DNA from: Haloplanus sp. XH21
Lineage (GTDB): Archaea; Halobacteriota; Halobacteria; Halobacteriales; Haloferacaceae
Direction: 5' to 3'
NCBI RefSeq assembly: GCF_023276355.1
Contig: NZ_JALLPL010000001.1
Location: 2,108,001 to 2,172,000, forward strand
Length of the DNA: 64,000 nt
The notes under the pieces: generated by a model
Seen by the model: the letters and a program-made list of their open reading frames with translations, nothing else
What the model was told of the DNA's origin: nothing
Database searches by the model: none
Translations under genes and position numbers: made by a program
Shown here: one piece after another, positions 50,910 through 60,978 of the stretch
Numbering within the stretch: the stretch's first letter is position 1
Layout of the letters: the number at the start of each line of letters is the position of its first letter

Positions 50910-51352
50910 TTACGCCGACACCACGTCGGGTTTCAGCGCCGCCACGGCGTCGAGCAGTTCCGCTCGGTCGCGCTCCGGCACGTCGAACGCCTGGAGACTC
51001 GCGTCCAGATGCTCCGCGACGCGGTCGAAGTCCGCCCCGGTGATGTTCAGGTGGGCGTGGGCCGCCTCCATGTTGCGGCCGTCGTACTCCCCCGGGCCGC
51101 CGGCGACCTGGCTGATGAACGTCGCCTGGTGGTCGTGCAGGGCGTCGGTGTCGACGCCCTCGAAGTAGGGTTCGGGCCGTTCGTCGTTCATACTGCGGCT
51201 GGAAGTCAATACAGCTATTCGCCGACCCGGGGCGGCGAATGGCTTGAAACAGTTACAGCCGACAGTATCAGCACGCGGTCGGAGAACTCGTCGACGACGG
51301 CCTCGATGGCGTCTCGTCCGCCGAGTCTGTCGTACAGCGTCTCCGACGACAT
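50910..51352 (-). pseudogene. Truncated haemoglobin (group I-like) split by a 77-bp insertion
   Basis: Two parts of one globin lie on either side of a short element. The first starts at ATG 51352 and reads MSSETLYDRLGGRDAIEAVV, then DEFSDRVL, until it enters the insert, where it stops in frame after about 20 more codons. The second resumes as NDERPEPYFEGVDTDALHDHQ and contains EAAHAHLNI with the probable haem-binding His. Removing the insert plus one copy of the TCA duplication restores one frame across VL|NDE. The downstream part could be translated from a new ATG at 51191, but would lack the first two helices. Confidence 0.85.
51191..51267. mobile_element. 77-bp MITE-like element in the globin gene
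   Basis: The ends are imperfect inverted repeats: TACTGCGGCTG (51191-51201) and CAGCCGACAGTA (51256-51267, reverse complement TACTGTCGGCTG). A TCA lies on both sides (51188-51190 and 51268-51270), a 3-bp target duplication. Inside is a hairpin with perfect arms ATTCGCCG (51217-51224) and CGGCGAAT (51233-51240). It has no coding capacity and must have been moved in trans. Confidence 0.8.
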
Positions 51353-59534: not shown

Positions 59535-60596
59535 GTGCACGTCGCGTTCGTGACGATGACGACGGCTCAGCACGAAGCCAGTTGGCACGCTCAGCGGGTG
59601 CGTGCGCTCGCTGAGCGACTGGTCGCCCACGGCCACGAGGTGACCATCTGCTGTGCGCAGTGGTGGGACGGCGACCATCCCGCCTTCGACTACGAAGGCG
59701 TCACCTACCGCCGGGTGACGACCGAGCGCGCGCCCCGGCCGTTCCTCGCGAAACTCCCGCTCGTCCTCAACGGCGTCCGTGCCGACGTGATCCAGGTGGC
59801 CACACGGCCACTGCTGGCCGTGCCCGCCGCGAACGTCGCGGCGACCCTTCGCCGGACACCGGTCGTCGCCGAGTGGTGGGACAGTCCCGATGACGGCGGT
59901 CGCACCTGGCGAGACCACTGGGCCGTCCGGTCGCCAAACGCCGTCCTCGTCCCGTCACAGACCGTCGAAACTGCGGTGCGTGAGCGGGGCGCCGACCCCG
60001 ACTCCATCGAGGTGATCCCCGACAGCATCGACATGCCGCTGATTCGGGACGCCCCCGTGGATCCCCGCGCGGATATGGTGTACGCCCGCTCGCTCGACGA
60101 ACACGCCAACGTCGAGGAGTTTCTGCTGGCGCTGGCGGAACTCCGGCAGCAGGAGTGGCGCGCCGCGGTCATCGGCGACGGGCCGGCGCGAACCGACGCC
60201 GAGCGCATGGCTCGGGACCTCCGAATCGACGACCGAGTGGAGTTTCTGGGGGCGCTCGACCCCGCCGAACAGGTGCCGATCCTCAAGGGCGCACACGTCT
60301 TCGCCCAGACCGCCACCTGGGAACCGTTCGCGAGCGACCTCCTCCGCGCGCTGGCGTGTGGCTGTGTCGGCGTCGTCGAGTATCAAGCCGACTCGGCCGC
60401 CCACGAACTCGTCGAGGAAGACCCGCGCGGCGCGCTGGTGACCAGCCCCCAGGAACTCGCGGGCGAAATCGTGACCGCAGCCGGGATGGAGCGCTGGACC
60501 GTCAACGAGGCGTACGCGTCCTACGACCATCACGCCGTCCTGAACCGCTATGTCGACTGTTACGAGCGGGGTATCGAAAACTACGGATTCCTCTAG
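59535..60596 (+). CDS. GT4-like glycosyltransferase
   Basis: A 353-residue GT-B glycosyltransferase starting at GTG. The first half has HVAFVTMTTAQHEASWHAQR and PLLAVPAANVAATL. The second has VIPDSIDMPLIRD, VIGDGPARTDAERM and the donor-site region TATWEPFASDLLRALACGC. The E-x7-E motif appears shifted (EPFASDLLRAL), so the donor site is somewhat atypical. The acceptor is unknown. Repeat copy D follows its stop. Confidence 0.83.
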   Translation: MHVAFVTMTTAQHEASWHAQRVRALAERLVAHGHEVTICCAQWWDGDHPAFDYEGVTYRRVTTERAPRPFLAKLPLVLNGVRADVIQVATRPLLAVPAANVAATLRRTPVVAEWWDSPDDGGRTWRDHWAVRSPNAVLVPSQTVETAVRERGADPDSIEVIPDSIDMPLIRDAPVDPRADMVYARSLDEHANVEEFLLALAELRQQEWRAAVIGDGPARTDAERMARDLRIDDRVEFLGALDPAEQVPILKGAHVFAQTATWEPFASDLLRALACGCVGVVEYQADSAAHELVEEDPRGALVTSPQELAGEIVTAAGMERWTVNEAYASYDHHAVLNRYVDCYERGIENYGFL

Positions 60597-60597
60597 C

Positions 60598-60668
60598 GTA
60601 GCGTTCGTAAGTCATCACACCTGATCGCGCGCAGTCAGGCGATCACGTGCGCAAACGGCTCCAAACGC
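60598..60668. repeat. Palindromic intergenic repeat, copy D
   Basis: It aligns with copy C (39361-39433) along its full length: GTAGCGTTCGTAAGTCA at the left, CACACCTGATCGC (60616-60628) and GCGATCACGTGCG (60639-60651) as imperfect arms, and TCCAAACGC at the right. It lies between the glycosyltransferase and the MTH865-type gene. Confidence 0.8.
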
Positions 60669-60717
60669 AACTGGAGCTTTCGGAACGCTTTTCCGCCGGA
60701 TCCGCCCACAGTTGGCC

Positions 60718-60978
60718 ATGAGCGACACCGTAGAGGCGGAACTCCGCGAGCAGTTCCGGGCGGCGTTCGAGAACGCGGACTTCCCCGTGTCCGACCAGAT
60801 GGATCTCGTTCCGGCGCTCCCGAACGGCCCGGCAACGCGGTTCGAGGCCGGCGACGTCTCCTTTTCCGCGATGGAACTCGCAGCGAACCTCGACGGTCAC
60901 CAGGAGTTCCCCTACGACTCCGTCGACGAACTCGTCGATGACCTGATCGCGGCGCTGGAAGCCGAAGACCTGCTATAG
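60718..60978 (+). CDS. MTH865-family small protein
   Basis: An 86-residue acidic helical protein. The pattern LREQFRAAFENADFPVSDQMDLVPALPNGP and then MELAANL and FPYDSVDELVDDLIAALE matches the MTH865-like family, whose structure is known but function is not. The ATG at 60718 follows a likely AT-rich promoter. It precedes the S9 peptidase by 37 bases. Confidence 0.85.
   Translation: MSDTVEAELREQFRAAFENADFPVSDQMDLVPALPNGPATRFEAGDVSFSAMELAANLDGHQEFPYDSVDELVDDLIAALEAEDLL

Follow-up and report, generated by a model that had tools for sequence, protein, structure and literature searches.

Abundant short extragenic palindromes of conserved length occur in bacteria, among them the ERIC, Correia and RUP elements and the REP/BIME palindromes. 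In Haloquadratum walsbyi, small mobile repeats (SMRs) of 80-110 bp have been described whose inverted ends are unrelated to any transposon, and which by definition make no target duplication (PMC3119063). The elements of the PIF/Harbinger group, in turn, produce a 3-bp target site duplication (TSD) (PMC2213677). Here we analysed a stretch of 64,000 nucleotides from Haloplanus sp. XH21 (the window), for which a sequence-only reading had proposed that a tiny MITE-like element with a 3-bp target duplication interrupts a truncated-haemoglobin gene. All three parts of that proposal were upheld, and repeats of this kind were found to be very common in many haloarchaeal genomes. The description that fits them best is a new MITE variant of haloarchaea, apparently an orphan, characterised by the duplication of TNA and a strong stop-codon habit.

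The element in the globin gene

The element is a near-palindrome of 77 bp with TCA on both sides, and its presence was confirmed at base level at positions 51188-51270 of the window (Table 1). As DNA it folds at -23.3 kcal/mol (z = -6.3), a value that none of 200 shuffled sequences reached, and the internal hairpin noticed in the sequence-only reading is present. When paired ends and equal flanking 3-mers were demanded together, one object was found in the window, compared to three in 100 shuffled windows. The ends, TACTG-C-GGCTG and (as reverse complement) TACTG-TC-GGCTG, form inverted repeats of 11 and 12 bases that leave one base unpaired, just as originally described. The unpaired base, however, does not characterise the family: since its members normally measure 78 bp and have a 15-bp end stem, the comparison of copies indicates a deletion of 1 bp in the left arm that is private to this copy.

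Table 1. Features at the interrupted globin gene, in window coordinates.
Feature	Position	Strand	Remark
3' part of split globin gene (NDERPEPYF...VVSA)	50910-51190	-	New ATG at 51189-51191; possible 93-aa fragment
Target duplication TCA, left copy, 3 bp	51188-51190	+	Fits TNA rule
Type-A element, 77 bp	51191-51267	+	Family length 78; 1-bp deletion in left arm
Left (L) end TACTG-CGGCTGGAAGTCA	51191-51208	+	Tip TAnnG and subterminal L motif AAGTC
Inner hairpin AGCTATTCGCCG...CGGCGAATGGCT	51213-51243	+	Sequence differs between copies, stays complementary
Right (R) end CAGTTACAGCCGACAGTA	51250-51267	+	Subterminal R motif CAGTT, asymmetric counterpart of AAGTC
Target duplication TCA, right copy, 3 bp	51268-51270	+	
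5' part of split truncated-haemoglobin gene (MSSETLYDRLGGRDAIEAVVDEFSDRVL)	51268-51352	-	Runs into element, stops

On the minus strand, the globin gene is interrupted between FSDRVL and NDERPEPYF, and both halves match Bac_globin (profile positions 1-29 and 32-119 of 121). The 5' ORF has 45 codons and then ends within the element. The new ATG that had been noticed is real, being created at 51189-51191 (minus strand) from an element base plus the duplicated bases. The accompanying idea that the C-terminal piece is expressed from it is only a possibility: in the candidate fragment the globin domain is missing its first 30 positions, and the XH21 genome carries two intact truncated-haemoglobin paralogues (C2:115080 and C1:1690394). 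The split gene is most likely a pseudogene, and the element explains a broken globin that annotation pipelines could take for a short real gene. In the 5' part (51268-51352, minus strand) the gene reads FSDRVL where FY (FY.RVL) stands in G116, a genome of the same genus, and in the solved truncated haemoglobin that matches best; the Ser likely lies at the position of the distal B10 tyrosine. Decay or divergence of the gene may have preceded the insertion or followed it.

Empty sites

In G116 (locus L097) the globin gene is intact and 72% identical to the split one, and in both genomes its neighbours are a 2-oxoacid:ferredoxin oxidoreductase subunit and aroC (chorismate synthase). The G116 site reads GTGTTGACCGAC, whereas XH21 reads GTGCTGA, the insert and then TGAACGAC. 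With a single TGA in G116 versus TGA-element-TGA on the XH21 gene strand, the gain amounts to 80 bp (77+3) and the target duplication to exactly three bases. As the sequence-only reading had noted, removal of the 77+3 bases restores the frame, and what remains matches the G116 site, a syntenic globin with neither the insert nor the duplication. A duplication of TA only (IS630-like) was rejected for this copy, because removing 73+2 bp leaves an in-frame stop (gtg ctg ata tga). The TGA that was hit is the out-of-frame TGA in ctg-aac, so that the gain of 80 bp shifts the frame and would have disabled the gene, making this one of the rarer harmful insertions.

A second empty site was identified on plasmids, where Halomicrobium mukohataei DSM 12286 carries a 79-bp copy and strain LC1Hm a plain TCA, annotated as the stop codon of HMUK_RS16305. 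One of the two duplicates at the occupied site is TCG, presumably by a later change. The junction alignment of another candidate, L271:44764-44843, was too poor for it to be counted.

A superfamily of near-palindromic repeats

The focal element belongs to a class that we call type A. In the XH21 genome it is represented by about 16 full-length copies (76-79 bp) and by decayed ones, roughly 30 in total when ends are counted at one mismatch or fewer (at two mismatches there are 61 matches, versus 28 for a reversed control pattern). The sister type B, of 80 bp, gave 156 end matches compared to 3 in the control, which corresponds to about 75 copies, many of which were read from end to end. The sequence-only reading had named a lack of further copies with similar ends as an outcome that would refute it; this did not occur, and the XH21 genome alone contains about 100 related copies of the two types. 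Nearly all of them are on C1 (2.53 Mb), with next to none on C2 and C3 (about 0.41 Mb together).

Within the host's family, 23 genomes out of 148 contain type A. Across its class the type is present in 56 of 292 sampled genomes and in 21 of 77 genera, including Haloarcula, Halomicrobium, Natrarchaeobius, Natronococcus, Halostagnicola, Halobellus, Salinigranum and Natronomonas. Copies also occur on plasmids of Haloarcula and Halomicrobium, and the 107-bp class (see below) had no match among plasmids. Near-identical 78-bp copies occupy many sites in G148 and in the PXRS01 contigs (QS_5_68_33; e.g. L138, L141, L147, L169). The genomes with fresh copies of this kind further include Natrarchaeobius chitinivorans, Halomicrobium katesii and G176, the last with 137 candidate places, and Haloarcula hispanica is another carrier of the element. 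The phages searched gave no element match, and the viral contigs gave 10 single-end matches and no paired element. Matches to the end pattern in Bryobacterales, Arsukibacterium and Ruminococcus contigs were discarded, since these are single ends with no partner and look like chance.

We next describe the anatomy of 221 candidate elements, which were gathered with no condition on their flanks. Their lengths are mainly 74, 76-80 (109 being exactly 78) and 104-109 bp, and they are multicopy and too short to encode a transposase, as MITEs are. Across types, the tips TA..G (TAnnG) and their complements are invariant, and just inside them lies a conserved asymmetry, AAGTC at the L end and CAGTT at the R end, the family end pattern being TAnnG...TGTAAGTC with TNA duplicated. 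When the hairpin forms, AAGTC and CAGTT face each other with two mismatches, G-G and C-C, in the middle of stems that are otherwise largely paired; just 2-8% of copies have a pair at these positions. In 49 non-redundant copies of the 78-bp class, most of positions 1-14 of the 15-bp end stem are paired in 82-100%, and position 6 in 73%.

The lineages differ in sequence and each has a matching partner arm, as seen for the arms TACTG.CGGCTG, TACGG.TTATTG, TACGG.CGGTTG, TAGTGATTGTTG, TAAGGGCTGTTG and TACTGTCGGACAC. Pair cells with both bases changed number 185 in the 78-bp class and 138 in the 80-bp class, versus 72 and 47 in column shuffles, all uncorrected for relatedness. Near-identical copies, in contrast, show 180 single unpaired changes versus 16 compensatory double changes. 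The copies therefore decay freely, as transposon copies would be expected to, while the active lineages stay symmetric.

Elements were also found nested within each other. In L208 and L228, members of the 107-109-bp class lie inside 78-bp elements and have duplicated TA; the point of entry is always TGTA/ACTG, which elements of other types occupy in L019 and L142. At L228:1798-2067, a 78-bp-class element contains two nested elements of other types, one per arm, each with TA duplicated. Chimeric elements with one type-A and one type-B end occur at L016:1501-1578 and L055:502-541, one of them just 40 bp long. The window itself contains, at 60582-60732, a decayed relative of a third type (GTTCGTAAGTCATCACACCTGATCGCGCGCAGTC...GCGCAAACGGCTCCAAACGC; compare L019). 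A further palindromic repeat, of 84 bp and with the ends TATAGTA...TACTATA, was seen at L019:1394-1477, L270:15142-15225, L271:19294-19377 and L272:30966-31049; in contrast to types A and B, the flanking 3-mers of its plasmid copies do not match.

Target sites and stop codons

The triplets flanking the elements are equal in 149 of the 221 candidates, and equal 4-mers were found in none. Among the 159 cases in which both flanks read TNA, the middle base is the same in 147, compared to 62 expected, and TGA or TCA accounts for 130 of the 145 TNA targets. In a minority of insertions TA is duplicated instead of TNA.

The insertions show a marked excess exactly at stop codons. Of 74 copies, 40 directly adjoin the stop of an ORF with 100 codons or more, a position shared by 9.9% of the TNA triplets nearby. 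When a crude gene caller was applied to the reconstructed empty sites, 47 of 145 fell at stops, compared to 431 of 14,097 TNA triplets (3.1%; odds ratio 15), or to 431 of 4,027 (10.7%; odds ratio 5.7) when only non-coding TNA is considered. A codon periodicity is visible in the bases that precede TGA, with G-A-C and then TGA, so that many of these sites independently read as gene ends. On one of the two strands a TNA triplet is a stop codon, and many of the TGA and TCA sites hit are real gene ends. Since the duplication of TNA would rebuild the stop codon, insertion there would be nearly harmless and copies could accumulate. The excess may reflect target choice, the survival of harmless insertions, or both. 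Under the TNA rule nearly all gene ends would offer a place where insertion is close to neutral, a simple account of how about 100 mobile copies can reside in a compact genome, and the insertions could be used as marks for haloarchaeal strain history.

The search for a mobilising enzyme

The sequence-only reading had seen no transposase with such ends in the window, and this observation extended to all the searches performed. In the XH21 genome, no two type-A ends paired at a distance of 0.5-5 kb except at C1:1973260-1974849, which was rejected as an autonomous partner: its flanks, AAA and TGA, are unequal, it encloses a gene for a coiled-coil protein, and the pairing is put down to chance. 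For the ends located in three other genomes, the usual spacing is 78 bp, and no pair at the distance of an IS was conspicuous. PF01609 (DDE_Tnp_1) loci were inspected in XH21, G148 and G150 (30 of 62), and none had the family ends with a TNA duplication; their ends are unrelated, ISH1- or ISH8-like, with duplications of 6-10 bp or none detectable. PF13359 (DDE_Tnp_4, Harbinger-type) was present in none of eight host genomes. No paper describing elements with these ends was found in the literature searched.

Origin of the elements

We consider it very probable that the elements are non-autonomous, MITE-like DNA transposons that duplicate TNA, frequently land on stop codons and are moved in trans. 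The superfamily comprises the near-palindromes of 74-80 and 104-109 bp with TAnnG tips, AAGTC on the left and CAGTT on the right. A trans-acting enzyme would move them, cutting T-N-A (in nearly all cases TGA or TCA) with a 3-bp stagger, which would leave the insertion bracketed by the duplicated TNA. Two observations count against this: the transposase searches, which were non-exhaustive, returned no gene with the family ends, and the minority that duplicates TA is not explained by one simple cut. A narrower form of the same explanation, and not its opposite, is that these are ordinary MITEs of a known haloarchaeal IS family, with an autonomous partner outside the sequences examined (for example an IS5-superfamily IS that duplicates TNA, or one of another transposase class). 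A TNA duplication, inverted ends and no coding capacity are typical of PIF/Harbinger-IS5 superfamily MITEs, and the near-identical copies in G148 and QS_5_68_33 would imply a recently active enzyme. However, the PF01609 loci inspected (30 of 62, in the three genomes named above) are ISH1- or ISH8-like with 8-10-bp duplications or nothing, and the eight genomes have no PF13359. We give this narrower form an even chance.

The elements could instead be SMRs as in H. walsbyi, mobilised by an unknown process. The size classes are alike (80 and about 110 bp), both are abundant with no related transposon, and the nesting at TGTA/ACTG, whether of the 107-109-bp class (L208, L228) or of others (L019, L142), fits as well; the plain 3-bp duplication seen here, however, makes this reading unlikely. 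Because SMRs are defined by having no target duplication (PMC3119063), membership is not claimed. Equally doubtful is an orphan class of mobile hairpins, whose undescribed enzyme would read the shape of the hairpin rather than the end sequence and steer insertions to TGA stops. The cues would tentatively be the TAnnG tip, the fixed length of 78-80 or 107-109 bp and the fixed G-G/C-C mismatch, telling left from right; if this were true, TGA stop codons would be a built-in safe harbour. A structured RNA at gene 3' ends, such as a terminator or mRNA-stability hairpin kept by selection, would account for the location at stop codons, for the strong fold (-23.3 kcal/mol) and for arms that change together between lineages (185 versus 72 in shuffles). 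We find it quite improbable, as G-T pairs are no more frequent than A-C mismatches (80 versus 107) and so give no sign of RNA pairing, changes between related copies are mostly single and uncompensated (180 versus 16), and insertions into genes occur; an Rfam gathering search of the window returned one tRNA only and no match for the element.

Comparison with known systems

Returning to the preferred reading, a non-autonomous MITE-like transposon, the elements resemble Tourist-type MITEs (PIF/Harbinger, related to bacterial IS5) in being short non-coding hairpins with terminal inverted repeats, a T-N-A-like 3-bp duplication and a high copy number. They differ in the absence of PF13359 from the eight host genomes, in a far more rigid length and L/R asymmetry, and in their preference for stop codons. 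With ERIC, Correia and RUP elements and with REP/BIME they share neither sequence nor host domain, and they are distinguished from these by the 3-bp TNA duplication and the exact abutment to stop codons. The MITEs of Haloquadratum are likewise non-coding elements with inverted terminal repeats (ITRs) and target duplications, but those bear the ends of known haloarchaeal ISs, which the present elements, as far as tested, do not (PMC3119063). The Haloquadratum SMR-A and SMR-B, of 80 and about 110 bp, are similar in having ITRs unrelated to transposons and in inserting into mobile repeats, and the nested 108-bp class resembles SMR-A, which targets the palindromes of other repeats; SMRs are reported to make no duplication (PMC3119063), whereas the present elements duplicate TNA and have the stop codons of genes among their main sites.
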